DNA of 64,000 bases, taken from contig JAFXVZ010000037.1 in NCBI GenBank assembly GCA_017534535.1, positions 62,001 to 126,000 of the forward strand. Reading direction: 5' to 3'. A program made the position numbers and the translations under genes. This DNA comes from Bacteroidaceae bacterium. Its GTDB lineage: Bacteria; Bacteroidota; Bacteroidia; Bacteroidales; Bacteroidaceae. The notes below the pieces were generated by a model. That model saw nothing but the letters and a program-made list of their open reading frames with translations. It did no database searches and was not told the origin of the DNA. Of the stretch, positions 11,390-59,221 are shown one piece after another; position 1 is the stretch's first letter, and each line of letters begins with the position of its first letter.

Positions 11390-12007
11390 ATGAAGATTAT
11401 TTGCATTGGCATGAATTACAGCCTCCATAAGGAGGAACTGGGACATACGGAGGCAACGCCAGAGCCCGTGATATTTATGAAGCCTGACTCTGCTATTTTG
11501 CGTGACGGCAAGCCTTTCTTTCTGCCTGACTTTTCGAAGAACCTGCAATATGAAACCGAGATAGTGGTGAGGATTAGCCGACTGGGCAAAAGAATCAGTC
11601 CGAAGTTTGTGCGTAGGTATTATGATGCAGTGACAGTGGGCATTGATTTCACTGCCAGGGATTTGCAGAGTAGGTTTCGGGCAGAGGGCCATCCTTGGGA
11701 GCTCAGCAAAGGTTTCGACGAAAGTGCTGTGATAGGTGAGTTTGTGCCATTGAGTGAGGTAGGAGGGGAGGTGCAGAACCTGCATTTCCACCTGAATATA
11801 GATGATAAGACTGTACAGCAGGGCTTTACGGGCGATATGCTTTTCACTGTGGATGAAATCATCTGCTATGTGAGTAAGTTTATGACACTGAAGATTGGTG
11901 ACTTGATTTATACGGGTACACCTGTTGGTGTAGGGCCTGTGTCTGTTGGCAATCATTTGCAGGGATATTTGGAAGACAAGAAACTTTTGGATTTTTTTGT
12001 GAGATAA
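11390..12007 (+). CDS. Fumarylacetoacetate hydrolase family protein (short form)
   Basis: A 205-residue single-domain FAH-family hydrolase. It shows KIICIGMNYSLHKEE at the N-terminus, EPVIFMKPDSA, the metal-binding YETEIVVRI segment (Glu-x-Glu), the GIDFTARDLQ motif and the C-terminal GDLIYTGTPVGVGPV. FAH proteins cleave C-C bonds in beta-diketo or oxaloacetate-like acids using Mg2+ or Mn2+; the substrate here cannot be deduced. Members of this short class are typical of Bacteroidetes. It is followed by family A heptamer repeats and ispF, and the three genes to the GH78 enzyme probably form one transcript. Confidence 0.85.
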   Translation: MKIICIGMNYSLHKEELGHTEATPEPVIFMKPDSAILRDGKPFFLPDFSKNLQYETEIVVRISRLGKRISPKFVRRYYDAVTVGIDFTARDLQSRFRAEGHPWELSKGFDESAVIGEFVPLSEVGGEVQNLHFHLNIDDKTVQQGFTGDMLFTVDEIICYVSKFMTLKIGDLIYTGTPVGVGPVSVGNHLQGYLEDKKLLDFFVR

Positions 12008-12036
12008 TGGTCAATCGTCAATTGTCAATTGTCAAT
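12006..12036. repeat. Family A heptamer repeat between the FAH gene and ispF
   Basis: Four consecutive 7-bp units of the form GTCAATN (GGTCAATC, GTCAATT, GTCAATT, GTCAATA) fill the gap. The same unit recurs at many other junctions and inside genes in this window. Confidence 0.8.
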
Positions 12037-12040
12037 AAAA

Positions 12041-12520
12041 ATGAAAGTAAGAGTTGGTTTTGGATATGATGTACACCAGTTAGTAGAAGGTCGAGATCTG
12101 TGGCTGGGTGGAGTAAAATTGCAGCATAGCAAAGGTTTGTTGGGGCACTCTGATGCCGATGTGCTCATACATGCCATTTGTGATGCCCTCTTGGGTGCTG
12201 CCAATATGCGAGACATTGGGTTCCATTTCCCTGATAACTCTGCTGATTATAAGGGTATTGACAGCAAGATTCTTCTGAAGAAAGTGGTTGAGCTCATAGC
12301 TACTAAGGGTTACAAGGTGGGTAATATCGATGCCACCGTGTGTGCTGAACGTCCTAAGCTGAATCCCCATATCCCAGAAATGCAACAGGTTTTGGCAGAT
12401 GTGATGGGGATAGATGCCGATGATGTTTCCATCAAAGCCACCACCACCGAGAAACTGGGTTTTACGGGTAGGGAAGAAGGTATATCTGCGTTTGCTACCG
12501 TATTGATAGAGAAAAATTAA
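12041..12520 (+). CDS. ispF: 2-C-methyl-D-erythritol 2,4-cyclodiphosphate synthase
   Basis: A 159-residue MEP-pathway enzyme that converts CDP-methylerythritol 2-phosphate to the cyclic diphosphate and CMP. Diagnostic features are FGYDVHQL with the zinc ligands Asp and His near the N-terminus, the GHSDADVLIHAICDALLGA motif, GDIGxHF-like DIGFHFPD, and the TTTEKLGFTGREEGI C-terminal motif. Length is normal. ATG 12041 is the true start; an in-frame TTG four codons upstream lies within the heptamer repeat. No RBS stronger than an A-rich leader is seen, as is usual in Bacteroidetes. Confidence 0.95.
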   Translation: MKVRVGFGYDVHQLVEGRDLWLGGVKLQHSKGLLGHSDADVLIHAICDALLGAANMRDIGFHFPDNSADYKGIDSKILLKKVVELIATKGYKVGNIDATVCAERPKLNPHIPEMQQVLADVMGIDADDVSIKATTTEKLGFTGREEGISAFATVLIEKN

Positions 12521-12533
12521 AAAGCAAAATACT

Positions 12534-15116: not shown

Positions 15117-15136
15117 TAAGGATATAAGACAACAAT

Positions 15137-16501: not shown

Positions 16502-17791
16502 ATGGAAGCAATCACTCTGTACGAGCTAAACTCTCTTGTGAAAGAGACACTTGAGTTGAGTTTACCTGATACCTATTGGGTACAGGCAGAACTCAGCGAG
16601 GTTCGTGTCAACAACGGCCATTGTTATGTGGAGTTCGTACAGAAGGATTGTCGGGGCAACGGACTAGTAGCGAAGGCGCGAGGCAACATTTGGCGGAATG
16701 TGTATTCGATACTCAAACCCACTTTCGAACGTGCCACAGGTCAGCTGTTTACGGCAGGCATCAAGGTGTTGGTGGAGGTAAATGTTACGTTTCACGAGCT
16801 GTATGGGTATGCACTGAATGTACTTGACATTGACCCTTCCTATACATTGGGTGATATGGCTCGCAAACGTCAGGAAATCTTGCGACAACTGCAAGAAGAA
16901 GGTGTGCTTGATCTAAACAAAGAACTTGAAATGCCCCTTTTACTCAAGCGCATAGCAGTCATCTCATCTGCTACAGCTGCAGGTTATGGTGACTTCTCCA
17001 ATCAGTTGGCTAATAACCAGGTAGGTTTTTATTTCCACACAGAACTATTCCCTGCCATTATGCAAGGCGATGGGGTAGAGCAGTCCATCTTGCAGGCATT
17101 GGATAGTATTTATGAGCGAGAGAGCGAGTTCGATGTGGTGGTCATCATCCGAGGCGGAGGAGCCACTTCTGACCTCACAGGCTTTGATACTTATCCATTG
17201 GCAGCTGCTGTGGCTCAATTCCCTTTGCCCATCATTACAGGTATTGGACATGAGCGTGACGATACCGTTTTGGATATGGTATCTCATACACGAGTAAAAA
17301 CTCCTACGGCTGCTGCAGAATACCTGATTGGCAGAATGCAGGATGCAGCAGATTTGTTGGTGGATTTGTCACAACGCCTCAATCAAGGTGCTGCTTATCT
17401 GCTGACTAGCCACAAAGAGCGTTTGTTGCGTTTGCAGGCTCGCATCCCTACTCATGCTATGCGGAGGGTAGCAGAAGGCAAGCTCTACCTGACGAACCTG
17501 CGACATCATATCTTGCAAGGTGCTATATTGCAAGTGGAACGCCAAATGCAGTGTTTGCCCAAGCTTCAGCCTTTGGTGCTTCAGGCCACGGCTCAGATAG
17601 AAAAACGACGTTTTCAACTGAAACTCATGGAGCAAAAAGTAACGGATGCCTCGCCAGACAAGCTCCTGGCTCGTGGTTATAGCATCACGCTGAAAAATGG
17701 TAAGGTGGTAAAAAATGCCGCCAAACTCCAGTCTGGTGATGAAATCGTAACCCGATTAAAACATGGTGAAACCATATCAATAGTCAAATAA
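16502..17791 (+). CDS. xseA: Exodeoxyribonuclease VII large subunit
   Basis: A 429-residue catalytic subunit of exonuclease VII, which degrades single-stranded DNA in both directions to short oligonucleotides. The N-terminal OB fold (about 1-110) has the TYWVQAELSEVR start and a GHCYVEFVQ strand. The central catalytic domain contains the family motifs AVISSATAAGYGDF, VVIIRGGGATSDLTGFD, and GIGHERDDTVLDMV followed by TPTAAAE. A coiled-coil arm and a C-terminal barrel segment (ARGYSITLKNGKVVK) complete the usual order. ATG begins on the base after the subtilase stop. The small subunit follows after a heptamer-repeat spacer. Confidence 0.95.
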   Translation: MEAITLYELNSLVKETLELSLPDTYWVQAELSEVRVNNGHCYVEFVQKDCRGNGLVAKARGNIWRNVYSILKPTFERATGQLFTAGIKVLVEVNVTFHELYGYALNVLDIDPSYTLGDMARKRQEILRQLQEEGVLDLNKELEMPLLLKRIAVISSATAAGYGDFSNQLANNQVGFYFHTELFPAIMQGDGVEQSILQALDSIYERESEFDVVVIIRGGGATSDLTGFDTYPLAAAVAQFPLPIITGIGHERDDTVLDMVSHTRVKTPTAAAEYLIGRMQDAADLLVDLSQRLNQGAAYLLTSHKERLLRLQARIPTHAMRRVAEGKLYLTNLRHHILQGAILQVERQMQCLPKLQPLVLQATAQIEKRRFQLKLMEQKVTDASPDKLLARGYSITLKNGKVVKNAAKLQSGDEIVTRLKHGETISIVK

Positions 17792-17828
17792 TTATTCATT
17801 ATTCATTGTTCATTATTCATTAATCATT
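17790..17828. repeat. Family B heptamer repeat between xseA and xseB
   Basis: Five 7-bp units of ATTATTC, ATTGTTC or ATTAATC type fill the spacer between xseA and xseB. Related CTTCATT-type units occur at 52116-52140, 52281-52308, 53499-53550 and 54812-54875. Confidence 0.75.
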
Positions 17829-18026
17829 ATGAAAACCGAATCCTACTCCCAAGCATTAGAGCGTTTGCAGAAGATTGTATCGCAAATAGACAGTGGTGAA
17901 CTGGAGATAGACCAATTGGCTGAAAAAATTAAAGAAGCCAACACCATAATAGCGTTTTGCAATGACAAACTGACTAGAGCAGACGAAGAAATTAAAAAAT
18001 TATCACAGGAAAGCAGTAATTCTTAA
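17829..18026 (+). CDS. xseB: Exodeoxyribonuclease VII small subunit
   Basis: A 65-residue helical protein with the XseB pattern: SYSQALERLQKIVSQIDSGE, LEIDQLAEKIKEA and a second helix with CNDKLTRADEEIKKL. Several copies wrap around the coiled-coil arm of XseA and are needed for regulated exonuclease VII activity. Length and position directly after xseA are as expected. Confidence 0.93.
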   Translation: MKTESYSQALERLQKIVSQIDSGELEIDQLAEKIKEANTIIAFCNDKLTRADEEIKKLSQESSNS

Positions 18027-18036
18027 TATTATTTGC

Positions 18037-24089: not shown

Positions 24090-25499
24090 ATGGCAAAAGA
24101 TAAAACGGCATACGTATGTTCTAACTGTGGATATGACTCACCCAAATGGTTGGGCAAGTGCCCGTCTTGCGGACAGTGGAATACGTTTCAGGAGATAGTG
24201 ATACACAAGGATTCGCCTGCAAAGACTGCATCTGCCAGCATGGCGATGGATACCTCACATAGCAACAAGCCTGTGTGCCTGCATGATATAGATGCTTCAG
24301 CTGAGCCTCGTATCGATATGCACGATGTAGAACTGAATCGGGTATTGGGTGGGGGCTTAGTCAAGGGTTCCTTGGTGCTGATAGGTGGTGAGCCTGGCAT
24401 TGGTAAAAGTACTCTCGTGATGCAAACTGTCCTACAGATGCCTGAAAAGCGAATACTATATGTAAGTGGAGAGGAGAGTCAAAGGCAATTAAAACTTAGG
24501 GCAGATAGATTAGGGAGTCGAGATAGTCATTTGTCAATTGTTGATCGTCAATCAGATAAAGATTGTCTCATCCTTTGCGAAACTAACCTCGAGCATATCT
24601 TCAAGCACATCAAGGAAGTACAACCTGAAATTGTCATCATAGACTCTGTACAGACTATTTACACCGAGTTAGTTGATTCCTCACCAGGCAGTATCACCCA
24701 AGTGAGAGAGTGTGCAGCTTCTATCCTGCGATTTGCCAAAGAGAGTCATACGGCCGTTATCCTGATTGGTCACATCAACAAAGAAGGTACCATTGCAGGA
24801 CCTAAAATACTGGAACACATTGTAGATACTGTATTGCAGTTTGAGGGCGACCAACATTATATGTACCGCATCCTGCGAAGTAACAAGAATCGTTTTGGCA
24901 GTACGGATGAGTTGGGTATCTACGAGATGCGTCAAGATGGCTTACGTCAGGTGAGCAACCCTTCTGAATTGTTGTTGAATCAGGAACATGAGGGTATGAG
25001 TGGCATTGCCATTGCTGGTGCCATTGAGGGTATTCGTCCTTTCTTAATAGAGGTACAAGCGTTGGTGAGCAGTGCGGTATATGGATATCCACAACGTTCT
25101 GCCACAGGCTTCGACTTACGGCGCATGAACATGCTTTTGGCAGTGCTAGAGAAGCGAGTGGGCTTCAAACTGGCACAAAAGGATGTATTTTTGAACATTG
25201 CAGGAGGCTTGCGGGTGAACGATACAGCCATTGACTTGGCAGTGATTAGTGCCATACTCTCGAGCAATATGGATGCTGCCATTGAGTCTGGTGTCTGCAT
25301 GGCAGGCGAAATCGGACTCTCAGGCGAGATTCGACCTGTGAGTCGTATTATGCAACGTATCACTGAAGCACAGAAACTGGGCTTCAAGCGTTTCCTAATA
25401 CCTAAGTATAACCTGAAAGGCATTGATACTAGCAAGTTGGATATCGAGTTGGTGCCAGTGAGAAAGGTAGAAGAAGCCTTTAGAATACTTTTCGGATGA
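24090..25499 (+). CDS. radA: DNA repair protein RadA, with a heptamer-encoded insert
   Basis: A 469-residue RecA-like branch-migration helicase that processes recombination intermediates. The order is an N-terminal zinc finger (CSNCGYDSPKWLGKCPSCGQ), a Walker A GGEPGIGKST, Walker B IVIIDSVQ, the RadA-specific KNRFGSTDELG motif and a C-terminal Lon-like domain (VNDTAIDLAVISAI). Family A heptamers at 24525-24553 encode LSIVDRQS around residues 146-155. They lie between the LRADRLG helix and the TNLEHIF helix, a loop that is variable in the family, so function is probably kept. The stop lies at the start of an inverted family A array. Confidence 0.93.
   Translation: MAKDKTAYVCSNCGYDSPKWLGKCPSCGQWNTFQEIVIHKDSPAKTASASMAMDTSHSNKPVCLHDIDASAEPRIDMHDVELNRVLGGGLVKGSLVLIGGEPGIGKSTLVMQTVLQMPEKRILYVSGEESQRQLKLRADRLGSRDSHLSIVDRQSDKDCLILCETNLEHIFKHIKEVQPEIVIIDSVQTIYTELVDSSPGSITQVRECAASILRFAKESHTAVILIGHINKEGTIAGPKILEHIVDTVLQFEGDQHYMYRILRSNKNRFGSTDELGIYEMRQDGLRQVSNPSELLLNQEHEGMSGIAIAGAIEGIRPFLIEVQALVSSAVYGYPQRSATGFDLRRMNMLLAVLEKRVGFKLAQKDVFLNIAGGLRVNDTAIDLAVISAILSSNMDAAIESGVCMAGEIGLSGEIRPVSRIMQRITEAQKLGFKRFLIPKYNLKGIDTSKLDIELVPVRKVEEAFRILFG
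24525..24553. repeat. Family A heptamer repeat inside radA
   Basis: Units TTGTCAATTG, TTGATC and GTCAATC, partly decayed, are translated in frame within radA. The orientation is the stop-free one. Confidence 0.65.
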
Positions 25500-25529
25500 T
25501 TGACGATTGACGATTGACGATTGACCATT
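25497..25529. repeat. Family A heptamer repeat between radA and the FAD protein gene
   Basis: Four units of GATTGAC, the reverse complement of GTCAATC. In this orientation every reading frame meets TGA, and the radA stop is next to the array. Confidence 0.8.
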
Positions 25530-27083
25530 ATGATTACAGAATATCAAATAAGGGTATTACCAGAGGTTGCTTCAAGCAATGAAGCCATCAAACGCTATCT
25601 GTTTGAGGAGAAAGGTTTGAGTGGCATCAACGCTATTAGGATATTGAAGCGAAGCATTGATGCCCGCCAGCGTACCATCTTCGTCAACCTCACCGTGCGT
25701 GCCTATGTGAACGAAGAGCCAGAACAACTCGCTTATACTCCTATTCTATATAATAGTGTGGAGGGCAAACCTCAGGTAATTGTGGTAGGTGCAGGTCCCG
25801 GAGGCCTTTTTGCTGCCTTGCGACTCATCGAACTGGGTTTGCGTCCCATTGTGATAGAGCGAGGTAAGGATGTGCACCAACGTAAATTGGACATTGCCAA
25901 TATCTCTCGTCAGCAAGCCGTTGACCCTGAGTCGAATTATAGCTTTGGCGAGGGTGGGGCAGGTGCCTACTCTGATGGCAAGCTCTATACACGCAGTAAG
26001 AAGCGTGGCAATGTGGAGAAGATCCTCAACGTGTTTTGCCAGCATGGTGCATCTACTGACATCCTAGTAGATGCCCATCCCCACATAGGTACCGATAAGC
26101 TACCTCAGGTGATAGAGAATATGCGTAACACCATCATCCGTTGTGGGGGCGAAGTGCATTTTCAGACCCGCATGGATGCCATCAATATTCAACGTAATCA
26201 GGTGGTGGGCATCTATACCAATACGGGTGAGGAGTTCAGGGGCCCTGTAATTTTGGCAACAGGTCATTCTGCTCGTGATGTCTATGCCTGGCTCTATGAG
26301 AATGGGGTGGAGATTGAGGCAAAAGGTATTGCTGTAGGTGTCAGATTGGAACATCCTTCGCGTCGCATTGATCAGATACAGTATCATCGAGGCGAGGGTA
26401 GGGGCAAGTATCTCCCTGCGGCTGAGTATAGTTTCGTAACCCAAGTGAGGGGCAGGGGGGTGTATAGTTTCTGTATGTGTCCTGGTGGAATCGTGGTGCC
26501 TGCAGCTACTGGATCCGAGCAGATTGTGGTGAATGGAATGAGTCCTAGCCATCGCAATACGGCTTGGAGCAACAGCGGTATGGTGGTAGAGCTTCGTCCA
26601 GAGGATGTGGAAACCATCGATGCTGGAAACCCCTTGAAGATGATGCAATACCAAGCTGACTTGGAGCGTCTGTGCTGGATGCAGGGCAACTACAAGCAGA
26701 CGGCTCCTGCACAGAGAATGGCTGATTTCGTGAATGGACAATTGGGTGGCTCATTGCCTGAGAGTAGCTATGCCCCAGGCCTAATACCGTCGCCTCTCCA
26801 CTTCTGGATGCCTCCATTCATTGCTGATCGTCTTCGTGATGGCTTCCGGCATTTTGGTAAACAGAGTCATGGCTTCCTTACCAACGAGGCAATTGTTATT
26901 GGTGTGGAAACCCGTACCTCTGCTCCTGTGCGCATTTTGCGTGATAATGATTCTCTACAACATGTACGCGTGCAGGGTCTCTTCCCTTGTGGCGAGGGTG
27001 CAGGCTATGCTGGCGGCATTGTTTCTGCTGCTGTGGACGGTGAGCGTTGTGCAGAAGCTTGCTTTGATTATATTGACAATTGA
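25530..27083 (+). CDS. FAD-dependent oxidoreductase of the COG2509 type
   Basis: A 517-residue flavoprotein. An N-terminal substrate-like domain (about 1-85) precedes the dinucleotide-binding VIVVGAGPGGLFAALRLIELG. Then come ERGKDVHQRK, FGEGGAGAYSDGKLYTRSK, the VILATGHSARDVY strand, MCPGGIVVPA and a C-terminal GEGAGYAGGIVSAAVDGERCAEA that contacts FAD. The family is widespread and often called an uncharacterised FAD-dependent dehydrogenase; the substrate is unknown. ATG 25530 follows a heptamer array. The last codons and the stop (DYIDN, TGA) are themselves formed by the next heptamer array, so the C-terminus is set by the repeat. Confidence 0.88.
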   Translation: MITEYQIRVLPEVASSNEAIKRYLFEEKGLSGINAIRILKRSIDARQRTIFVNLTVRAYVNEEPEQLAYTPILYNSVEGKPQVIVVGAGPGGLFAALRLIELGLRPIVIERGKDVHQRKLDIANISRQQAVDPESNYSFGEGGAGAYSDGKLYTRSKKRGNVEKILNVFCQHGASTDILVDAHPHIGTDKLPQVIENMRNTIIRCGGEVHFQTRMDAINIQRNQVVGIYTNTGEEFRGPVILATGHSARDVYAWLYENGVEIEAKGIAVGVRLEHPSRRIDQIQYHRGEGRGKYLPAAEYSFVTQVRGRGVYSFCMCPGGIVVPAATGSEQIVVNGMSPSHRNTAWSNSGMVVELRPEDVETIDAGNPLKMMQYQADLERLCWMQGNYKQTAPAQRMADFVNGQLGGSLPESSYAPGLIPSPLHFWMPPFIADRLRDGFRHFGKQSHGFLTNEAIVIGVETRTSAPVRILRDNDSLQHVRVQGLFPCGEGAGYAGGIVSAAVDGERCAEACFDYIDN

Positions 27084-27102
27084 CAATTGACGATTGACAA
27101 TT
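27071..27102. repeat. Family A heptamer repeat at the end of the FAD protein gene
   Basis: Four units ATTGACA/ATTGACG in the stop-bearing orientation. They overlap the final codons and stop of the upstream gene and end just before the next ATG. Confidence 0.8.
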
Positions 27103-39073: not shown

Positions 39074-39139
39074 GTCACTTTTTGGAACAGCGAGAGCAAA
39101 GCCAATGCCGAGTCGTGACAAAATTGGAGCGAAGCTCAA
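39074..39139. repeat. REP-like element, copy 1 (internal stem deleted)
   Basis: It begins TCACTTTTTGGAACAGCGAG and ends with GGAGCGAAGCTCAA. It matches copies at 50852-50938 and 52174-52283 but lacks their internal stem-loop. It touches the stop codon of the M13 gene. Confidence 0.75.
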
Positions 39140-42122: not shown

Positions 42123-42123
42123 A

Positions 42124-42155
42124 ATTATCAATGGTCAATTATCAATCGTCAATAA
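42124..42155. repeat. Family A heptamer repeat between the DUF362 and GH16 genes
   Basis: Four GTCAATN/ATCAATN units. On the minus strand they read ATTGAC/ATTGAT, and the DUF362 stop lies in the array. Confidence 0.7.
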
Positions 42156-47599: not shown

Positions 47600-48451
47600 A
47601 TGTTAAGAATAGCAGTACAATCTAAAGGTCGTCTGTATGACGAAACGATGTCTTTCCTGGCGGAATCAGACATCAAGTTGAATTTAATGAAACGAACACT
47701 TTTGGTGCAGTCGAGCAATTTCCCCCTGGAGGTGCTTTTCCTGCGCGACGATGATATTCCCCAGACGGTAGCCAGTGGTGTGGCAGATATAGGTATTGTG
47801 GGGGAGAACGAGTTTATGGAACGCGACGAAGACGCTGATATCGTGAAGCGATTGGGTTTCAGCAAATGCCGTTTGTCATTGGCGGTTCCCAAGAGTGTGG
47901 ATTACCAAGGTGTGCAGTGGTTCGAGGGTAAGAAAATAGCTACCAGCTATCCTGTGATTCTGCGTAAGTTCTTGGAAGAAAAGGGTGTGCAAGCCGATAT
48001 TCATGTGATTACGGGCTCTGTGGAGATTAGTCCGGGCATCGGCTTGGCTGATGCGATATTCGATATTGTGAGCTCTGGCTCTACGCTGGTGAGCAATCAC
48101 CTGAAAGAGGTGGAGGTGGTGATGCAGAGCGAGGCTCTGCTGATAGGCAACCGAAATATCTCTGAGGAGAAACGTGCCGTACTGGATGAGTTGTTGTTCC
48201 GCATTGATGCAGTGAGGGCAGCTGAGGATAAGAAATATGTGCTGATGAATGCACCAAAGGAGAAGTTGGAAGAGATTATTGCTGTGTTGCCAGGTATTAA
48301 GAGTCCAACGGTGATGCCATTGGCTGAGGAGGGTTGGTGCTCTGTGCATACAGTACTTGACCAGAAGCGTTTTTGGGAGATTATCGGTAAGCTGAAGGAG
48401 CTTGGTGCTCAGGGAATACTGGTGATCCCGATAGAGAAGATGATTGTGTGA
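47600..48451 (+). CDS. hisG: ATP phosphoribosyltransferase (long form)
   Basis: A 283-residue enzyme for the first step of histidine synthesis, joining ATP and PRPP. It shows LRIAVQSKGRLYDETMSFL, DIGIVGENEF, KIATSYPVILRKFLEEKG and the PRPP loop ADAIFDIVSSGSTLVSN. The C-terminal regulatory domain (about 215-283) marks the long, homohexameric form that is inhibited by histidine and does not need HisZ. It is the first gene of the his operon; family A-like units lie between it and hisDC. Confidence 0.95.
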   Translation: MLRIAVQSKGRLYDETMSFLAESDIKLNLMKRTLLVQSSNFPLEVLFLRDDDIPQTVASGVADIGIVGENEFMERDEDADIVKRLGFSKCRLSLAVPKSVDYQGVQWFEGKKIATSYPVILRKFLEEKGVQADIHVITGSVEISPGIGLADAIFDIVSSGSTLVSNHLKEVEVVMQSEALLIGNRNISEEKRAVLDELLFRIDAVRAAEDKKYVLMNAPKEKLEEIIAVLPGIKSPTVMPLAEEGWCSVHTVLDQKRFWEIIGKLKELGAQGILVIPIEKMIV

Positions 48452-48455
48452 AGAT

Positions 48456-48490
48456 TTACAATTTACGATTGACAATTTAAGATTGACTAT
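48456..48490. repeat. Decayed family A heptamers between hisG and hisDC
   Basis: Units resembling ACAATTT, ACGATTGACAATTT and AGATTGAC fill the spacer in the stop-bearing orientation. Confidence 0.55.
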
Positions 48491-48502
48491 TTGATAGATA
48501 AG

Positions 48503-50845
48503 ATGATAATAATAAATAATCCGGAAAGAAAGGAATGGAGTGAGTTGCTGAGGAGACCCATGATGGATACTGGGCGACTGCATGATAAGGTTCGTGGCAT
48601 CCTGGATGATGTGAAAGCAAATGGGGATGAAGCTGTACTGAAGTATGAGGAAACCTTTGACCATGTGCAGCTGACAAGCCTTGCTGTGACGGAGGCTGAG
48701 ATGGAGGAGGCTGAAGGACTGGTATCAGAGGAGCTGAAAGCTGCCATCAAGCTGGCAAAAGAGAATATCGCCAAGTTCCATCAGGCACAGCGCTTTGCTG
48801 GCATTCAGGTGGAGACACAACCTGGGGTGTGCTGTTGGCAGGAGTCGGTGGCCATTGAAAAGGTGGGTCTCTATATCCCAGGCGGTACGGCTCCGTTGTT
48901 CTCAACGGTGTTGATGCTGGCTGTCCCTGCTCAGATAGCTGGTTGTAAAGAGATTGTGCTATGTACCCCTCCTGCTCGAAATGGCAAGGTGCATCCTGCC
49001 GTTCTGTTTGCTGCCCATACAGCTGGCGTGAATCATATATATAGGATAGGTGGTGTCCAAGCTATTGGTTCTATGGCCTATGGTACAGAAACCGTACCTC
49101 AGGTGTATAAAATATTCGGTCCAGGTAATCAATATGTTACAGCAGCCAAGCAGTTGGTGAGCATGGGAGATGTGGCGATAGATATGCCAGCTGGTCCGTC
49201 TGAAGTGTTGGTATTGGCTGATGAGACAGCTAATCCTGTGTTTGTGGCTGCCGACTTGCTGAGTCAGGCTGAGCATGGGGTGGATAGTCAGGCGATGTTG
49301 GTGACAACCTCTACTGAGTTGCAACAAGCTGTGAAAGAGGAAGTAGAGCGTCAGTTAAAGGCTCTGCCTCGCCAGGAGATTGCGGAAAAGTCATTGGCAA
49401 ATAGCAAACTGATTGTAGTACCTACTATGGATGAAGCCATTGAGATGACTAACGAGTATGCACCAGAGCATCTGATTATTCAGACTAAAGACTATCGTGA
49501 GGTGGCGAAACGCATTGTCAATGCTGGCTCTGTGTTCTTGGGGCATTATGCATGTGAAAGTGCTGGTGACTATGCCTCTGGTACCAATCATACCTTGCCT
49601 ACCAATGGTTATGCGAAGGCGTATAATGGTGTGAACCTCGATAGCTTCTGCCGTAAGATTACCTATCAGGAACTTACGGCTCAAGGTATTGGCCATATTG
49701 GCCCTGCTATTGAAGTGATGGCTGAGAATGAGCAGCTGGATGCACATAAGAATGCTGTAAGCGTGAGACTGATTGACAATCGTCAATCGTCAATTGTCAA
49801 TTGTCAGCGCTCAATCAACAATCTGGTTCGCCCCAACATTCTATCCCTCGCCCCTTACTCTTGCGCCCGCAATGAATATAGTGGGGTAGATGCCAGTGTG
49901 TTCCTCGATGCCAATGAGAATCCGTATAATGGACCAATCAATAGATATCCTGATCCGTTGCAGACAGAGTTGAAGCACGAGATTGCAAAGGTTAAGGGCG
50001 TGTCAGAAGACCGTATATTCTGTGGAAATGGCAGTGATGAGGCCATCGACCTGGTATATCGCATCTTCTGTAATCCAGGAATGGACAATGCTGTGGCGAT
50101 AGATCCAAGCTATGGCATGTATCAGGTGTGTGCCGACATCAATGATGTGGCATATCGCAAGGTACAACTTGATACCAATTATCAGTTCCATGCTGATGAT
50201 TTGTTGAAAGCTGCAGATAATCATACAAAATTGATGTTTATTTGTACACCGAATAATCCTACGGGCAATGACATGAGTCATGCAGAGGTGGAGAAGCTGT
50301 TGCAAAACTTCTGGGGCATTGTGGTGGTGGATGAGGCCTATATTGACTTCTCCGAACAGCCATCTTTTACCAAATTGTTGGATAAGTACCCTAACTTGAT
50401 TGTTTTGCAGACCTTCTCGAAAGCTTGGGGCTGTGCAGCCATTCGTTGTGGTATGGCGTTTGCCTCGCCTGAGATTATCGGACTGTTCAACAAGGTGAAG
50501 TATCCGTATAATGTGAACATGCTCACGCAACGTCATGCATTGGAGGCTCTGCGCAATGCCCAGCAGACCAAGGAATGGGTGAAAATCTTGAAAGAAGAGC
50601 GTACTCGCCTGATGCAGCTTTTTGCTGAGTTATCATTGACGGAGCAGGTATTCCCATCGGATTCCAATTTCTTCCTGGCTCGCGTGACGGATGCGAATGC
50701 CATTTATAAGTACTTGGTGAGTGAGGGCATCATTGTGAGAAATCGCAATAGTGTGACACTGTGTGGCAATTGCCTGCGTATTACGATTGGTACGCCTGAA
50801 GAAAATGATACACTGATTAAAGCACTGAAAAGATGGAAGAGTTGA
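48503..50845 (+). CDS. hisDC: Histidinol dehydrogenase - histidinol-phosphate aminotransferase fusion
   Basis: A single 780-residue frame. Residues 1-422 are His[23 protein letters not shown], the [16 protein letters not shown] and LLSQAEHG segments, and EHLIIQ with the catalytic Glu-His. Residues about 440-780 are His[62 protein letters not shown] and catalytic Lys in QTFSKAWG. The two are joined by family A heptamers (49771-49815) that encode [17 protein letters not shown] and remove the usual hisD stop. No ATG lies in the linker, so a bifunctional protein for the last, oxidative step and the transamination step is expected. ATG 48503 is preferred to a TTG four codons upstream. Confidence 0.88.
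49771..49815. repeat. Family A heptamer repeat forming the HisD-HisC linker
   Basis: An inverted unit (ATTGACAATC) is followed by about four GTCAATN units, all translated. Confidence 0.8.
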
Positions 50846-52095
50846 ATAATAATGGTCACTTTTTGGAGCAGCGAGGGCAGAGCGATGCTTGCATCGGCTA
50901 TGCCGAGTCGCGACAAAATAGGAGCGAAGCTCACTTGTCAATCGTCAATGGTCAATCGTCAATGGTCAATCGTCAACGACTGCTCTTTATTGACAGAGAC
51001 GGCACATTGGTGCTTGAACCACCTGTGGATTATCAGCTGGATGCGTTCGAGAAGCTACACTTCTATCCAAAAGTGATGAAGAACTTAGGCTTTATCCGCA
51101 GCAAGCTTGACTTCTGCTTCGTGATGGTGACCAACCAAGACGGCTTAGGTACCAGTTCGTTTCCGTCAGAGACATTCTGGCCTGTACATAACTTTGTGAT
51201 GCAGACGTTGGAAGGGGAGGGCATTGTTTTCGATGAGGTATGCATTGACCCATCGATGCCAGAGGAACACTCTCCCAACCGCAAACCTCGCACTGGGATG
51301 CTCAAGCATTATATGAATAATGAGCAGTATGATTTGGCACACAGCTATGTGATTGGTGACAGACCTACTGATGTTGAGTTGGCTAAGAACTTAGGTTGTA
51401 AGGCCATTCTGCTGCAACCAGATATGTCTTGTTTGGAGACAAAACCCGAACTGAAGGATGTCTGCGCCCTTGTTACAGATGATTGGGACAAAGTGGCTGA
51501 GTTCCTGTTTGCAGGGGAACGCCAGGCGGAGGTAAGGCGCACCACCAAAGAGACGGATATCCGTGTGTCAGTAAACTTGGATGGGCATGGGGATTGTGTC
51601 ATCAATACAGGCTTAGGCTTCTTCGACCACATGCTGGAGCAGATTGGCAAACATGGAGGCATTGACTTGACCATTGATGTCAAGGGTGACCTTTATGTAG
51701 ATGAGCATCACACCATTGAAGATACAGCATTGGCATTGGGCGAGTGTCTGTATCAGGCCTTAGGCAGCAAGCGAGGCATTGAACGCTATGGCTATTGTTT
51801 GCCGATGGACGATTGCCTATGTCAGGTTTGTCTTGACTTTGGCGGCAGACCTTGGTTGGTGTGGGATGCTGAATTCAAGCGTGAGAAGATAGGGGAGATG
51901 CCAACAGAGATGTTCCTGCATTTCTTCAAGTCATTGAGTGATGCAGCTAAGATGAATCTGAATATCAAAGCAGAAGGTCAGAATGAACATCATAAGATTG
52001 AAGGAATCTTCAAGGCGTTTGCCCGTGCTATGAAAATGGCGATAAAACGAGATATCTATCACTACGAGCTTCCCTCCTCAAAAGGAACGTTATAA
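50833..52095 (+). CDS. hisB: Bifunctional histidinol-phosphatase/imidazoleglycerol-phosphate dehydratase
   Basis: Residues 48-215 form a HAD phosphatase domain: [15 protein letters not shown] with the nucleophile Asp, VTNQDGLGT, and [15 protein letters not shown]. Residues 235-420 form the IGP dehydratase domain with the manganese motifs [29 protein letters not shown] and [17 protein letters not shown]. The first 47 residues, starting at ATG 50833 inside hisC, are encoded wholly by a REP-like element and family A heptamers. ATG 50962, within a heptamer, would give the compact start [14 protein letters not shown] and is an equally plausible initiation site. It is the last gene before the terminator at 52098-52119. 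Confidence 0.92.
50852..50938. repeat. REP-like element, copy 2, inside the hisB reading frame
   Basis: It runs from TCACTTTTTGGAGCAGCGAG to GGAGCGAAGCTCACTTG. Its internal stem is CGATGC-TT-GCATCG. It is read through in frame if hisB starts at 50833. Confidence 0.8.
50935..50977. repeat. Family A heptamer repeat at the start of hisB
   Basis: Six GTCAATC/GTCAATG units in the stop-free orientation, containing two possible ATG starts (one in frame at 50962). Confidence 0.85.
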
Positions 52096-52308: not shown

Positions 52309-53503
52309 ATTTCGCCAACCCTCCCTCGCTGGTTTCTTTGTAGAGAGAAGGCAGGTCATGGCCGGTTTTGTTCATCACATCTACCACACGGTCGAAGGAA
52401 ACACGGTGGTGTCCATCGGTAAAGGTGGCATAGATGTTGGCATCCAAAGCACGGGCAGCAGCGTAAGCATTACGCTCGATGCAAGGAATCTGCACCAAGC
52501 CACAAACAGGGTCGCAAGTCATGCCCAAGTGATGCTCCAATCCCATTTCAGCTGCATATTCAATCTGATAAGGACTGCCTCCAAAGAGTTGGCAAGCAGC
52601 AGCTGATGCCATAGCACAGGCTACACCCACCTCACCTTGACAACCCACATCGGCACCTGATATAGAAGCGTTTTCCTTGACGATATTACCAATCAGTCCG
52701 GCAGTTGCCAAAGCTCGCAAGATGCGTGTATCGCTAAAATCATGCGTCAGATGCAGGGAGTAGAGCACGGCTGGCAATACACCGCAACTACCACAGGTAG
52801 GTGCAGTAACAATCATACCACCAGAGGCGTTTTCCTCGCTCACAGCCAAGGCGTATGCAAACACCATACCCCTGGAACGCAGGGTACCCTGATAGCCCTT
52901 TGCCCTCAGATAGTAAGTGATGGCCTTGCGTCGCAGGTTCAGCGGACCAGGCAACACACCCTCGGCCTCAAGGCCTCGTTCAATGGCAGCTTTCATCACT
53001 GTCCACACCTCTTGCAGGTAGTCCCAGATATCGGTGTCCTCGTACTTGGCTACATATTCCCAGTAGCTTCTGCCTGTTCGCTCGCACCATTCCAGGATGT
53101 CTGTCATGCTGGTCATAGGGTAAATGTCGCCGATATCGTTCATCCCTACAGGACCTTCCTCTGTTTCAAGTGCTCCACCTCCCACACTATACACCGTCCA
53201 GTCTTCCGTAACGTGCTCATCCTTATCGATTGCCTTGAAATTCATGCCATTGGGATGGAAGGGTAGAAAGACCTTTGGTTGCCAGACAATCTGAACAGGA
53301 GCTACAGGCTCCAACTCTTCCATGATGGCTACATCGGTCAAGTGTCCCTTGCCAGTGGCCGCTAAGCTGCCATAGAGGGTCACCTTGAAGCGGAAGGCAT
53401 CAGGATGGCGCTCCTTAAATAGTTGGGAGGCTTGCTTGGGGCCCATAGTATGACTACTTGAAGGCCCCACGCCAATTCTGTATATTTCCTTTATACTCTT
53501 CAT
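52289..53503 (-). CDS. sdaA: L-serine ammonia-lyase (iron-sulfur type)
   Basis: A 404-residue single-chain L-serine dehydratase that turns serine into pyruvate and ammonia. It shows KEIYRIGVGPSSSHTMGPKQA, YGSLAATGKGHLTDVAIMEEL and the C-terminal catalytic domain with GGMIVTAPTCGSCGVLPAVLYSL, GADVGCQGEVGVACAMASAAACQLFGG and TCDPVCGLVQIPCIERNA. The Cys residues are placed to hold the 4Fe-4S cluster. Both its ends are made of family B heptamers: ATG lies in an AATGAAG unit and the last five residues come from the next array. Confidence 0.93.
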   Translation of the reverse strand: MKSIKEIYRIGVGPSSSHTMGPKQASQLFKERHPDAFRFKVTLYGSLAATGKGHLTDVAIMEELEPVAPVQIVWQPKVFLPFHPNGMNFKAIDKDEHVTEDWTVYSVGGGALETEEGPVGMNDIGDIYPMTSMTDILEWCERTGRSYWEYVAKYEDTDIWDYLQEVWTVMKAAIERGLEAEGVLPGPLNLRRKAITYYLRAKGYQGTLRSRGMVFAYALAVSEENASGGMIVTAPTCGSCGVLPAVLYSLHLTHDFSDTRILRALATAGLIGNIVKENASISGADVGCQGEVGVACAMASAAACQLFGGSPYQIEYAAEMGLEHHLGMTCDPVCGLVQIPCIERNAYAAARALDANIYATFTDGHHRVSFDRVVDVMNKTGHDLPSLYKETSEGGLAKLMKNEE

Positions 53504-53550
53504 TCTTCACTCTTCACTCTTTATTCTTCATTCTTCATTCTTCCTGTTTC
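53499..53550. repeat. Family B heptamer repeat between the membrane protein gene and sdaA
   Basis: On the minus strand seven AATGAAG/AGTGAAG-type units span the junction. They supply the TGA of the upstream gene and the ATG of sdaA. Confidence 0.85.
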
Positions 53551-54818
53551 CTGTATAATTGTAATGAAGTCGTTTGTTTGTTGCCTGAAGGAGTCGTTTC
53601 CTCAAATGTCCACACCATCGTGTTGCCGCTCTTGTCAAACGAGACAACATGATCAGCCTTCATCTCCTGATGCCTGAATCGCTCCAGGAAGTCTTTCCTC
53701 GCCATTTCTTTTCTGATTTCCAGGCTGTCTTTCATACGTTCCAAAGCTGACTGTGGGAAACTGCTCGTGTCAAAGTCAAAGGAAAGCATTTCTGCGTTAT
53801 TGAAATCGACGTAAGATGTCAGTAAGTTGCCTTCCAGTTCCCACTGCCCTTTCGTGAGGATGGTCGTTGGGATCAAAAGCAAGACCTCTTTCTGCTCCAC
53901 TGCGAGTAGAAGCTGCGCCTGAAGTTCTATGCCCCAAGTCCTTTCGAAGGTGTTGTCCGCATGGTACACGATGGTATCCTTGTTCACCAGCCATGTGCCA
54001 ATAATCAAATCGGCTAAATCCTGCTGTGAAACATGCTCCGAATTTTGCTTGATATATTTTTCTATATCCTCGTCGGTAATGTCCATCAGCAGTTTGTTCT
54101 CGCGGTTCAGCCTTTCCAGCTTAGAAACAGCATTCTGATAGGCATTTTTTCGGGTAAAATAACGCTTGATATAGAGCGTTGTCAATTTATGTGCGAAAAC
54201 CTGCTTCATCACTTGTCGCCGGGCTTCGGGGAGCAGAACGCCGTCGTAATCGATGGCGGTTGAGTGCAACTCGTACAGAAAGTCCTCGTATGCATCCTTG
54301 CCGATCGGACGGCGGAACATGGGAGCATCCTCCATCACTTTCATTAGCGAGCGGCGCACGTAGTAGCATGACTGCACATTGTCGTAGAACTGGTTGTTCC
54401 CCAGGTTCATGCGGGTATCGATACCGCTGTTGAAGGCGTTCTCCTTTGTGTCGGCTGTCCATTCCTTCACCACCGTAGGATCGTCGTACAGATACTTGAA
54501 CGCCATATCCAGTGTGTCCATTGGTAGCAAGTCGATCAGTTCCTGATGGGTAGATACATACATGGTCACTCTGAACAGACTGTCCTCCAGTTGTATCTCG
54601 TCCTTGAGTCCTTGCGTAATCTCATCGATGTCGCACACCGCCATGATGGCCGTCTCGCGTTGAGCAGCCCGCTGATGGGCGTCCTCCACCTTGTCGTTCA
54701 CGAAGAAGGTCAACCCCACACCGATAGCAGTACCGACGATGGTTAGCAGCAGTTCCTTGAGCCATCCCTTTCCTGTCAGATTGCGCCCGAACTTAGGCAA
54801 TTTGAATTTCACGTTCAT
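53535..54818 (-). CDS. Single-pass membrane protein of unknown function (DUF6090-like)
   Basis: A 427-residue protein. A transmembrane helix near residues 20-42 (LKELLLTIVGTAIGVGLTFFV) follows a short basic N-terminus. It resembles small membrane proteins of Bacteroidetes in which this helix is followed by a helical soluble domain. Here residues 45-270 are helical and rich in charged residues. Residues 285-427 look like a lipocalin-like or META-like beta domain (DLIIGTWLVNKDTIVYHADNTFERTW, then repeated strands). Function is unknown. Its start codon lies in a family B unit (AATGAAC) and its end in another. Confidence 0.7.
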   Translation of the reverse strand: MNVKFKLPKFGRNLTGKGWLKELLLTIVGTAIGVGLTFFVNDKVEDAHQRAAQRETAIMAVCDIDEITQGLKDEIQLEDSLFRVTMYVSTHQELIDLLPMDTLDMAFKYLYDDPTVVKEWTADTKENAFNSGIDTRMNLGNNQFYDNVQSCYYVRRSLMKVMEDAPMFRRPIGKDAYEDFLYELHSTAIDYDGVLLPEARRQVMKQVFAHKLTTLYIKRYFTRKNAYQNAVSKLERLNRENKLLMDITDEDIEKYIKQNSEHVSQQDLADLIIGTWLVNKDTIVYHADNTFERTWGIELQAQLLLAVEQKEVLLLIPTTILTKGQWELEGNLLTSYVDFNNAEMLSFDFDTSSFPQSALERMKDSLEIRKEMARKDFLERFRHQEMKADHVVSFDKSGNTMVWTFEETTPSGNKQTTSLQLYRKQEE

Positions 54819-54875
54819 TCTTCATTCTTTTCTGTTCATTGTTCACTGTTCATTCTTCATTCTTTACTGTTCATT
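54812..54875. repeat. Family B heptamer repeat between the S46 peptidase and membrane protein genes
   Basis: On the minus strand the units AATGAAC, AGTGAAC and AATGAAG run from the S46 stop to the next ATG, with one interruption (AGAAAAG). They encode the last residues (NEQ) of the peptidase. Confidence 0.85.
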
Positions 54876-57020
54876 GATACTCATCTCATTAATCAGTCTT
54901 TGCGCTCCACCCAACTTGTCAATCACGAACAGCACATAGCGGATATCCACAGCGATGCAACGCTGCAGGTTATCATCGAAATTGATGTCACCACTCAGTG
55001 ATTCCCAGTTGCCGTCGAAAGCAATGCCAATCAACTCACCGTTGTCATTCATCACAGGGCTACCAGAGTTACCGCCAGTAATATCGTTGGTAGTCAGGAA
55101 GCAAGCTGGCAATGAACCATCCTTCATAGCATAACGGCCAAAGTCACGCTTCTCCAACAGCTCCTTCAGCTTAGCAGGCACCACGAACTCAGGATCGTCA
55201 GGATTCTCTTTCTGCAACACACCATCGCCAGTAGTATAATACTTGTAGTGCACACCATCCTTAGGGTCGTATGACTTCACATTGCCATAAGTAAGACGCA
55301 TGGTGAAGTTAGCATCAGGATAGGATGGGGTAGGCAGCTTCATCTCGTTCAGACCACGGATAAAAGCCTTGTGCAGCAGAGACAAATCCTCTGTTGATGA
55401 ATAAGCCGCAGCGGCATTCATTATGCAATCCATAATAGAACGTGTGTTGGCCAGCGATGGATCCTTGTCGATAGCCTTGACGGTAGGCTTTTTCAGGAAC
55501 TTATTCAGGTTTGCTTCGTTGGCGAAAATGGAATTGTTATAGATATTATCTACGTAAGCATCCACATTACCCTTGAAATCACGTTGGATGGTCTGGTAGA
55601 AGCTGGGCAGCTCACTGTTGCTGAGCGCCTTGTTCAGTCCTGGAATCATGGCCTTTGCCACCAGGCGATCCACCTCGTGGTCATAGTTCTTGTTGTGGAT
55701 TTGTGCAAATGCCTGGCGCAGTTCCTCTTTGGCTTCTTCTATTCCTGCATTATCCTTGTTCTTGATGGCTTCCTTCATCTTATCCATCATCTCCACAGGC
55801 GTTCTGAATTCGATGGCGCTGTAGAACTCGCTCAGGTAGTCCACCCAGCGTGATGCAGGCATGGACTCTGCAATAATGTTATTGATTTTGTCAACCACAC
55901 CTTCGTATTCAGGCTTGCCTTGTGCGAAAGCCTTGAACTGCTTCTCTATTTCAGCCTTGGTTTCCAGTACCTTGTTGTCGATAATGGCCTGGTTCATACC
56001 AATGGAATTCTTCCAGTAGTTGCTGCTGCCTGCAAACTTGCTGGCATACTGGATGCGGGTCTTGTCACTCTTCGCCATCGCCTCACGCAACACATCCAGG
56101 CGGATGGTACGCATATCGATGCGAGACTGGTTGGTGGTGTACATACGCTCAGTCACCTCTGACTCAGTGAGGTAACGACTGGTACTGCCAGGGAAGCCCA
56201 AAATCATGGCATAGTCGCCTTCGTTCAGGCCCTTGATGGAAATCTTCAGGTACTTAGGCGTCTTCAGCGGCACGTTGTCGGGAGAATAGTCGGCTGGCTC
56301 ACCATTTTGGTCGGCATAAATGCGGAAAACGGAGAAATCACAAGTGTGACGAGGCCACATCCAGTTGTCCGTTTCACCGCCAAACTTACCAATGCTTGAT
56401 GGAGGAGCTGCCACCATGCGCACATCATTGTAAACTTTGTAATAGATGAGGTAGAACTTGTTGCCTGCATAGAATGGCAGTGCCTGTGCCACAATACCAG
56501 GCTTGCCGTTCAGGTCGCTCTTCTCAAGCTCTTCTTGCGCCAACTTATTCAGGTAAGCACGTGTCATCGAGTTGATTTCAGTTACCACACCACTCTTGAT
56601 TTGCTCATTCACCAGGTCGGTGATATCCACCATGCGATGTACAAAGCGGAAAGAGAGGCGCTGGTTAGGTAGTTCATCTGCCAAGGTCTCAGCCCAGAAA
56701 CCATCTGTAAGGTAGTCGTGCTCCACAGAGCTATGTGACTGGATGGCACCATAGCCACAGTGGTGGTTGGTCAGAACCAGTCCGTTGGGAGAGATTATCT
56801 CGCCCGTGCAACCACCTCCAAAGATGCCCACAGCATCCTTGAGGGATACGCCATCAGGGTTGTAAATGTCAGAGGCATCAAGTTTTAACCCCTGTTTCTT
56901 CATCATATCAATACTGTTTTGCTGCTGCATGAGCTGCAATAACCACATACCTTCATCGGCTTTCGCACCCCCAACAAGGACCGTTGCCAATGCTACAATA
57001 ATTAAGACTTTGACTTTCAT
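54864..57020 (-). CDS. S46-family dipeptidyl-peptidase (DPP7/DPP11 type)
   Basis: A 718-residue secreted exopeptidase with signal [17 protein letters not shown]. The mature N-terminus DEGMWLL is the part that binds the substrate amino group in this family. The chymotrypsin-like triad is visible: His in [16 protein letters not shown], Asp upstream of the helical insert, and Ser in [18 protein letters not shown]46 enzymes release dipeptides from oligopeptides and feed asaccharolytic growth. The S1 Gly/Arg residue that separates DPP7 from DPP11 lies near [11 protein letters not shown] and is not judged here. The promoter is TATCTTTG at 57046-57053. Confidence 0.93.
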
Positions 57021-57045
57021 ATTCTAAAGATGTTTAAAATTTCAG

Positions 57046-57084: not shown

Positions 57085-57115
57085 CCATCGACATCAACAT
57101 AAACATACGGTGGTT

Positions 57116-57886: not shown

Positions 57887-57914
57887 TCAACCTTCATTTA
57901 GAATGCCGTTGCCT

Positions 57915-58091: not shown

Positions 58092-58457
58092 ACTCTGTAA
58101 GTTTTTAAGTTAAACAAATGGGTTGATGTAGTGAGATCTCATGACTGCAATTGTTGTGCAAGGAGAATGCAGAGCTGAGCCCGCTCGAGCTATGCTGAGC
58201 CGCAGCCAACAATCGCACCTTGCAATTCCTAATTGCAAGTGCAAAGATAATAAAAATTTTGATATGTTTCACAAAATGGCAAAAATATTTTTCGACTTTT
58301 TTTTGAAATGTTAAAAATTTAATTTTCATCCGCTCCAACTAAACTGCCAGTCTTATCCGACAAAATGAGCCATCCGCTTCGTGCAGATGGTTTATCGGCT
58401 CATTTTGATTATAAAAGACAAAGTGAAAGAGGGCATTCGGGGCGCTCGCTAACCAGT
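58092..58457. other. Non-coding leader region with REP-like copy, dyad, promoter and hairpin
   Basis: It contains a diverged REP-like element (58169-58213, stem GAGC-CC-GCTC) and the perfect dyad CTTGCAATT-CCT-AATTGCAAG (58219-58239). Next is the minus-strand -7 element TATCTTTG (58243-58250). An 11-bp inverted repeat CAAAATGAGCC / GGCTCATTTTG (58361-58371 and 58397-58407) has an inner CCATC/GATGG pair. No gene is seen. Confidence 0.6.
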
Positions 58458-58665
58458 GTTGCATTGTTGCATGTTGCATTGTTGCATTTGCATTTTCAAT
58501 TTTTCATTTCATCAAATAGATAATTTGTTTCTATATATTTATATTAATAATATTATTAATATTATTAATATAAATATATAGAGGTTGAAACACCTATTTT
58601 TGCCACCTCTTTTCACCCCTCAAACAAAAAAACGAAATGCAACAATGCAACAATGCAACAAATTG
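58458..58665. repeat. TTGCA-arm inverted-repeat element, right copy, with a perfect 49-bp palindrome
   Basis: The left arm (58458-58496) has five TTGCA-type motifs at 7/8-base spacing. The right arm (58634-58665) carries three TGCAACAA units in inverted orientation. In the centre, 58532-58580 is a perfect palindrome of 24-bp arms around one base, made only of A and T. Beside it TATTTTTG and CTTTTCACCCCTC match the left copy (TATTTTTG, CTTCACCCTCTC). This is the same plan as 3389-3570. Confidence 0.7.
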
Positions 58666-58744
58666 AAAAAGTTAATGATATTTCCTGCTTATCTCAAAAA
58701 TGATTCATTGTCTTTGTTGCATATTCATGTCTTTTCCTGATGTG

Positions 58745-58810
58745 GTTGACAACCGTTTTACTGAACAAGTTGACACTTTACTGGAATCGTTGACACCTTT
58801 ACTGAAATCA
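58745..58810. repeat. Three tandem GTTGACA...TTTACTG repeats
   Basis: Units begin at 58745, 58769 and 58789 (24, 20 and about 21 bases). Each has GTTGACA followed by TTTACTG(A/G)A. They lie upstream of the truncated XRE gene. Confidence 0.65.
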
Positions 58811-58976
58811 TAAACTAAAACGAATCTCAAATTGGGAAACGAATTATTGTTGAAAAATAGGGTAACCTACATCATTGTACTTTTTCTGACTAAAGCTATA
58901 TGATTTTTTTCTGTGTTATGCTGACTCGAATAGGCAAAATGCATTATCAGAAATTATTTTTTAAGTTAATTATTGC

Positions 58977-59033
58977 ATGAAACAGGAATACAGCATTGAA
59001 CTCATAGAAGAGTATGATTATGAAGAGGAGTAG
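58977..59033 (+). CDS. 18-residue acidic small open frame ahead of the XRE gene
   Basis: It encodes MKQEYSIELIEEYDYEEE and stops at TAG, whose G is the first base of the GTG that opens the XRE frame (TAGTG). It could be a coupling leader peptide or the left-over N-terminus of a broken antitoxin gene. Confidence 0.3.
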   Translation: MKQEYSIELIEEYDYEEE

Positions 59034-59221
59034 TGTTTTTGGAGGAAAGGTGTTCAAGAGTCAATCGTCAAAATCGCAAGACAGTTTCGTTGTCTTTTCG
59101 TATTGTTGATCGTATTCACGAGGTCTTACAGGCAAAAGGTCTTAAGCAGAAAGATCTGGCACAGAAACTCGGTAAGAGCGAGGCAGAGGTTAGTAGATGG
59201 ATGCGTGGCACCGGCGAATAA
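59033..59221 (+). pseudogene. Truncated XRE-family helix-turn-helix regulator (antitoxin-like)
   Basis: A 62-codon frame that opens at GTG and contains a good Cro/CI-type HTH: VDRIHEVLQAKGLKQKDLAQKLGKSEAEVSRWMRGT. Related HigA-type antitoxins continue with an Asn-Phe-Thr segment and a closing helix. Here the protein stops three residues after the recognition helix, right at the dnaJ terminator. The start is weak (GTG, no ATG in frame before it). Family A-like bases (GTCAATCGTC, 59059 on) occur in its N-terminal part. No toxin gene is adjacent. It is most likely a decaying antitoxin or regulator. Confidence 0.6.

Follow-up and report, generated by a model that had tools for sequence, protein, structure and literature searches.

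The window, meaning the whole 64-kb stretch of DNA that was analysed (C5:62001-126000 of a draft genome that is 89% complete, hereafter the home genome), carries short arrays of the heptamer GTCAATN both between and inside genes (Table 1). Eleven such sites had been named in a first-pass annotation. Recognisable arrays lie at ten of them, and the eleventh, at 59059, has two units and is marginal. The array finder returned arrays of four to six units at 12010-12036, 25499-25525, 27072-27098, 44059-44092, 49775-49801 and 50937-50977. The first of these directly follows the stop codon of the FAA_hydrolase-family gene (TAA within TAATG), and the array at 42123..42153 consists of three overlapping unit pairs with one mismatch in each. 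A second family, TTCATTN, is also present in the window, at 17791, 52118, 52282, 53497 and 54808.

Table 1. Heptamer arrays and a nested palindromic element in the window (coordinates of the window).
Feature	Position	Strand	Context
GTCAATN array, 4 units, open	12010..12036	+	between FAA_hydrolase-family and YgbB (IspF) family genes
TTCATTN array, open	17791..17829	+	spacer
Degenerate array, open	24526..24553	+	length-variable loop of radA; G042 has clean units at these codons
Stop-oriented array	25498..25529	-	fills the spacer from radA to the FAD-protein gene
Stop-oriented array	27072..27102	-	provides the stop of the FAD-protein gene; occupies the spacer up to the LuxR-family gene
Degenerate units of GTCAAC/GTCAAT type, open	31902..31934	-	variable stretch of U32-family gene (- strand)
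Degenerate array, stop-oriented relative to flanking genes	42123..42153	+	DUF362 and glycosyl hydrolase 16 family genes (- strand)
Array, open	44055..44097	+	His-rich linker between two Pfam domains of CobW-family protein
Degenerate stop-oriented units	48451..48492	-	hisG-hisDC spacer
Array, open	49771..49806	+	linker of fused HisD-HisC protein
Small palindromic dispersed element GGAGCAGCGAG...GCCGAGTCG	50857..50936 (ends approximate)	+	adjoins the HisB array, same reading frame
6-unit array, open	50937..50977	+	N-terminal tail of HisB
TTCATTN array, stop orientation	53497..53543	+	between two - strand genes
TTCATTN array, stop orientation	54808..54876	+	spacer of two - strand genes
Two units only (GTCAATCGTCAAA), marginal	59060..59072	+	

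The existence of a GTCAATN tandem family, as first proposed, is borne out far above chance. The two-unit pattern GTCAATNGTCAAT, allowing one mismatch, matches 27 times in the window (mean 0.49 and maximum 3 in 100 shuffles), and a scan of the home genome (2.7 Mb; 2,706,220 bases) found 266 perfect three-unit places, against none for the reversed pattern. The same count is 153 in genome G041 and 325 in G042 versus 2, 3 and 4 in G043, G044 and G045; the burst lies in one clade, that of the home genome, G041 and G042. The nearest HisD sequences in named genomes belong to a Bacteroidaceae MAG from yak omasum (locus L009, in G041; 89%) and to Bacteroidales RUG12887 (L010, in G042; 88%), and loci L011-L013 represent G043, G044 and G045. 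The cyanobacterial origin that the heptamers at first suggested was rejected, these nearest relatives being Bacteroidaceae/Bacteroidales MAGs, several of them with rumen or omasum in their names. Three-unit places occur in 5 of 41 relatives searched, the home genome included, with 24 places in G006; this set contains G008, whose match places coincide with those of G044, and the two are probably one genome. Across a sample of the phylum GTCAATN was detected in 18 of 395 genomes (home genome included; next highest count 14), and within the family TTCATTN was detected in 85 of 399 (highest count among the matches listed, 213), a patchy phylogenetic spread for both. Two contigs of the home genome (C1 and C12) and one of G042 (C17) terminate inside heptamer arrays or a few bases past them. 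The arrays probably break the assembly, so that their true number is underestimated. Within some arrays the direction flips at a palindrome such as ATTGACAATTGTCAAT, where both orientations abut (L001:1501-1538; window 49771-49790).

Each burst genome favours few hexamers. A strict census of hexamer-plus-base arrays gave 44 GTCAATN, 20 TTCATTN and 6 others in the stretches of the home genome (64/70 in two families), 38 GTCAATN, 15 TTCAATN and 9 others in G041 (53/62 in two families), and GTCAATN in 25 of 27 arrays of G042, figures that lean towards GTCAATN, as stretches were picked for such arrays in 20/20 cases for G041, 9/14 for G042 and 8/20 for the home genome; the remaining 12 home stretches come from C5 and C6, where they are near-contiguous, and ortholog hits supplied the remaining 5 of G042. 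The commonest family of G006 is TCCATTN (5/15 arrays), with no majority family, and that of G047 is CTAAACN (3/5). This last family, CTAAACN/GTTTAGN, was seen at L015:1036-1096 and L139:3321-3370. The plant telomere heptamer is TTTAGGG, and the GTTTAGN units equal to it are probably a coincidence within the hexamer-plus-base pattern. Ordinary replication slippage, acting alone on chance seeds, should expand many hexamers, against which stands this concentration in one or two families per burst genome.

The units themselves follow a simple rule. Among 459 interior units of arrays with at least four units, agreement with the hexamer at each of positions 1-6 is 89.5-100%, and position 7 reads T 99, C 148, G 168 and A 44 times, with a like pattern in 51 TTCATTN units; this count is biased, as units were accepted with up to one hexamer mismatch, and the fair test is a column-neutral period-7 finder. 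With that finder, 73 of 115 arrays of the three burst genomes have at least three deviations, and the top column of each array accounts for 275 of their 498 deviations (174 expected, maximum 193 in 1000 runs). In the other genomes 11 of 30 arrays qualify and the top column takes 31 of 55 deviations (21.6 expected, maximum 29 in 5000 runs). Neighbouring units agree at base 7 in 182 of 474 pairs, compared with 137 in pooled and 192 in within-array shuffles. Shuffling within genomes, for arrays outside genes, yields z values of 3.0 for the home genome, 2.5 for G041 and -0.3 for G042. The free bases thus have a mild preference within arrays and lack a clear order, and the z values of two of the three genomes indicate that some copying of base 7 happens. 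The reading adopted here is that six bases are fixed when a unit is made, the other being left largely open. Hypermutation of base 7, or selection for the hexamer as a putative binding site, would be alternatives to this reading.

Plain slippage is consistent with a period that stays at 7 while the sequence varies, with a relative whose radA has a single unit where others have arrays, and, for two genomes of the three, with some resemblance between the free bases of adjacent units; heptamers are also the commonest long simple repeat class in most genomes studied (Mrazek 2007, as quoted in the passages of PMC4679880 considered here). The concentration of deviations in one column per array speaks against slippage alone, which is on balance unlikely. 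The hexamer-plus-free-base rule argues against it and against block transposition, in which a transposase would spread either a mobile element of very small size or the ends of the nested palindromic element. For such an element speak the copies, which number in the hundreds and are dispersed in each of three sister species. However, in none of the three genomes do arrays share strings of three to five free bases more often than shuffles do, and similar flanks are few in this comparison of one genome per species, which bears on MITEs and insertion sequences with terminal inverted repeats and target-site duplications: 16 pairs among 122 arrays, of which 9 owe their likeness to the palindromic element, 4 to other heptamers and 3 to other sequence. 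On both grounds the arrays do not look like block copies.

The palindromic element GGAGCAGCGAG...GCCGAGTCG is 65-70 nt long, includes a closing GCGAAGC hairpin, and is nested in many heptamer arrays. Further copies lie in the window at 39084 and 52275, and at L096:18615, L100:938 and L203:3723. The stretches of the home genome hold 11 copies, those of G041 7, G042 5, G006 2 and G045 3, and none were found in the stretches of G046, G047, G043, G001, G044 and G015. Inspected by eye, the closing hairpin varies by paired changes (GAGCGAAGCTC, ATGCGAAGCAT, GGCGAAGCC). Within genes the element lies on the gene's strand and inside the open frame, as in HisB, MetH and an NtrC-like gene (cut short) of the home genome and in LtaS of G042. 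This nesting, in frame inside genes, could favour block transposition. Against this, the element often sits within the local heptamer, whichever that is, including the other heptamers of G006 and G045. In G042 another dispersed palindromic repeat, CTCCCTCC...GGGGGAGAG, was observed at about 2500-2560 and 3890-4060 of L010 and in L151; it occupies the spacers of hisG-hisD and radA-FAD and also the HisD-HisC linker, where it keeps the reading frame and adjoins a GTCAATN array.

Two candidates for a trans-acting enzyme were considered among 11 genomes. A Y1 transposase domain is present in four (G006, G041, G042, with 24, 153 and 325 three-unit places, and G046), which fits spread by a transposase, but it has no match in the home genome with its 266 places (a draft assembly, in which absence is weak evidence). 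The Pfam family RVT_1 is found in two (G001 and G044) and was not matched in the home genome, G041 or G042, again drafts in which absence weighs little. Neither enzyme tracks the burst cleanly. Block transposition is judged an unlikely origin.

Orientation was tabulated on genes called by a simple codon-usage script in 439,100 bases of the home genome, 377,848 of G041 and 149,574 of G042 (about 967 kb), many of these stretches having been chosen for containing GTCAATN arrays. The 122 GTCAATN arrays of at least three units comprise 29 in called genes, 68 in spacers between co-directional genes, 16 between convergent and 1 between divergent genes, and 8 at stretch ends. The first-pass annotation had stated that in-gene arrays always run in the open orientation. 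The translations confirm this for every case in the window, and across the home genome and the two sister species the tabulation gave 28 open arrays and 1 in the stop orientation, rather than equal numbers. Its related statement, that the array is open in all frames one way, is correct while N is not A; where N is A, CAATAG contains TAG. Units with A at this position make up 4 of 144 in gene-internal arrays versus 55 of 452 elsewhere.

The sole stop-oriented array inside a gene (L183:10932-10979, G041) has seven units and lies in a phosphoglycerate mutase gene (Pfam); the two units whose TGA would fall in frame read TCA and TTA. Similarly, the U32 gene of G041 (L163) contains stop-oriented units in a shorter form, with an in-frame TTA. 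In co-directional spacers the stop orientation prevails (44 versus 24; p 0.02), an excess that may be a matter of classification only, open arrays near gene ends being absorbed into ORFs. Once genes and co-directional spacers are pooled, 52 arrays are open and 45 are stop-oriented (p 0.54), and before the reading frame acts no direction bias relative to transcription is detectable. Because of this pooled balance, and because stop-oriented in-gene arrays survive with their TGAs replaced, orientation is attributed to selection against stops acting on orientation-blind arrays. On the same evidence the earlier idea that the array is a code for making linkers or gene ends is not supported. TTCATTN arrays of the home genome are absent from genes (0/27, versus 13/47 for GTCAATN; p 0.003), and those in co-directional spacers are split 11 to 11 by orientation.

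Among the 44 stop-oriented arrays in co-directional spacers, 23 contain the stop codon of the upstream gene, at offsets -5, -12 or -19 and every time as the TGA of a unit. In a further 8 of the 44 the upstream stop stands at offset 2, immediately ahead of the first unit and in register with it (2 TGA, 6 TAA), and the six TAA codons may be old stop codons with an array growing right behind them. TGA terminates 31 of the 44 upstream genes versus 261 of 778 called genes. The FAD-protein stop codon, which the first-pass annotation gave as formed by the array, is indeed an array TGA. For 15 of the 31 in-register cases another genome offered an ortholog with 56% identity or more, the remaining 16 being without one among the compared loci, and protein lengths differed by no more than 6 residues in all 15; in one of these, L177, a glycine-rich tail makes up the final 40 residues and fails to align with the ortholog. 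Where orthologs allow comparison, the arrays therefore sit on gene ends without shortening genes. The left-end motif TAATN (35/122 arrays) was considered as an insertion target and rejected, as the examples inspected were an upstream TAA stop or a downstream ATTATG start.

A selected translation device would also place arrays at these sites: lying in the stop orientation between operon genes, it would end all three frames and restart the ribosome at the next start. The stop excess in co-directional spacers, the 31 of 44 arrays with the upstream stop inside or in register before them, and the 17 of 44 that finish within 21 nt of the called downstream start are in line with this, and translational regulation is proposed for TAACTGA repeats upstream of starts in the relevant passages of MacGregor (PMC4679880). 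Yet the bias vanishes when in-gene arrays are counted, the second family is evenly divided in co-directional spacers, several of the same spacers lack arrays in sister species, and 16 of 122 arrays lie between convergent genes. Such a device is accordingly judged very unlikely, and the arrays need no assumed cell function.

Inside genes the arrays occupy variable linkers or loops, as Pfam stretches and ortholog alignments indicate. The scan covered 16 gene-internal arrays (13 home-genome arrays from the array finder, radA and U32 of the window, and the phosphoglycerate mutase of G041) and took the best stretch per Pfam family. Eleven arrays lie outside the listed stretches, in CobW, HisD-HisC, HisB, an ABC protein, an LtaS-like sulfatase (two), MetH (two), an NtrC-like regulator, DsbD and an outer-membrane efflux protein. 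Five lie within one, namely a third LtaS array and those in a glycosyltransferase, phosphoglycerate mutase, radA (AAA domain) and U32 (DUF3656). Relatives were compared for MetH (13), DsbD (12) and LtaS (8), and radA and U32 were also aligned; the places that hold arrays vary in length anyway, and sister species carry arrays of other length or none. With the 28:1 ratio in genes and the stops supplied at gene ends, this agrees with the first-pass statement that arrays become linkers and gene ends.

The same places differ between sister species, each represented by one genome. At the radA codons of the home array, G042 (L151) has four clean GTCAATN units, and the radA of L153 has a single GTCAATC. 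Relatives hold related or other heptamers at the U32 place, G006 (L170) having AATGGAN with the palindromic element inside. The spacer between the FAD-protein and LuxR-family genes contains ATTGACN in the home genome, AATGAAN in G042 and AATGGAN in G006, and no array in G041, G043, G044 and G045, and the hisG-hisDC spacer of L011 and L013 is 18 bp without an array. HisD and HisC share a single open frame of 783-848 codons in L009-L015, whether the array is present or absent, and occupy two frames in L016, L017 and L019. Formation of the hisD-hisC fusion by the array was ruled out, since the genes are fused without it in L011-L015.

The explanation that is probably correct is that the arrays are lineage-specific, fast-turnover heptameric short tandem repeats that arise in either direction and are sorted by purifying selection. 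Each unit consists of a fixed hexamer (GTCAAT, or TTCATT in the second family) and one free base. Arrays would grow where extra DNA is tolerated, in compact operon spacers, at gene ends and in variable protein linkers or loops, as the comparison with relatives bears out. Growth in either direction would be followed by purifying selection. A stop-oriented array with at least three intact units, ending every frame, would survive at gene ends, often becoming the stop codon, and inside a gene would do so only after losing its in-frame TGAs; an open-oriented array would survive as a linker or tail, as observed. More tentatively, and with somewhat less than even confidence, single units already present may have grown locally into arrays, through a genome-specific 7-nt process whose copying is faithful for six bases and poor for the seventh. 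Counting against this explanation, plain slippage should copy base 7, yet neighbours agree there in only the fraction of pairs given above. A generator that chooses few hexamers per genome would need a specific factor, and none was found among the Y1 and RVT_1 profile matches of 11 draft genomes; in G006, moreover, the leading family accounts for no more than 5 of 15 arrays. A further reading is unit-by-unit, sequence-specific synthesis: somewhat like telomerase, the process would write a fixed hexamer and a largely untemplated seventh base at gene junctions under weak constraint, a trans-acting template or protein setting the hexamer and changing between sister species. This is improbable, and its writer would be of another kind, because RVT_1 is unmatched in the three burst genomes (drafts).

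The arrays bear on how heptamer repeats arise and spread. Burst sisters stand beside near relatives with 2-4 places, and a given linker or spacer can be compared in a version that has an array and one that lacks it. That a fixed hexamer is followed by a free base gives a sharp hint of what generates the repeats, and the arrays show a route by which non-coding repeats become linkers and gene ends of conserved enzymes. A search of open-licence PMC papers (subscription papers lying outside it) returned no paper for four GTCAAT/ATTGAC array strings and none on GTCAATN or TTCATTN units.

Several known repeats are comparable. The cyanobacterial STRR heptamer arrays, reportedly described by Mazel in 1990 and Elhai in 2008, are said to have small structured repeats embedded in them; they are alike in their heptamer arrays and nested small repeats, and differ in unit and phylum. 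The nearest documented system is the TAACTGA direct repeat of marine Beggiatoaceae, Cyanobacteria and some Bacteroidetes (five among the hosts; MacGregor, 2015; PMC4679880). In the passages of that paper used here, forward repeats give stops in all frames and reverse repeats an open seven-residue cycle; the repeats overlap upstream stop codons in 13 cases, with reverse repeats inside ORFs, and have a strain-specific spread, the mechanism of origin being left open. Heptamer repeats with these positional rules are, on the strength of those passages, already known, and the present arrays share 7-nt units repeated head to tail at numerous sites within a genome, a mostly noncoding location (29 of 122 are gene-internal), one-way stops, overlap with stop codons and patchy spread. 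They differ in the unit, GTCAATN or TTCATTN with a free seventh base instead of TAACTGA with all seven bases fixed, in lying in linkers and loops of conserved enzymes, in hexamers that differ between sister species, and in the nested palindromic element. Rickettsia palindromic elements, of about 150 bp, are found in frame in unrelated conserved genes (Ogata, 2000, as cited in the part of PMC10969869 used here). Short repeats in frame within conserved genes are common to both, whereas a palindrome of about 150 bp with conserved ends is absent here, and the nested element of 65-70 nt resembles those elements more than the arrays do. The free seventh base, the hexamer switch at one site and the occupation of linkers in many conserved enzymes do not appear in the passages of PMC4679880 considered. 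New here are the fixed hexamer with a free base, hexamers that differ between sisters, evidence that lends no support to block copying, and the nested palindromic element.
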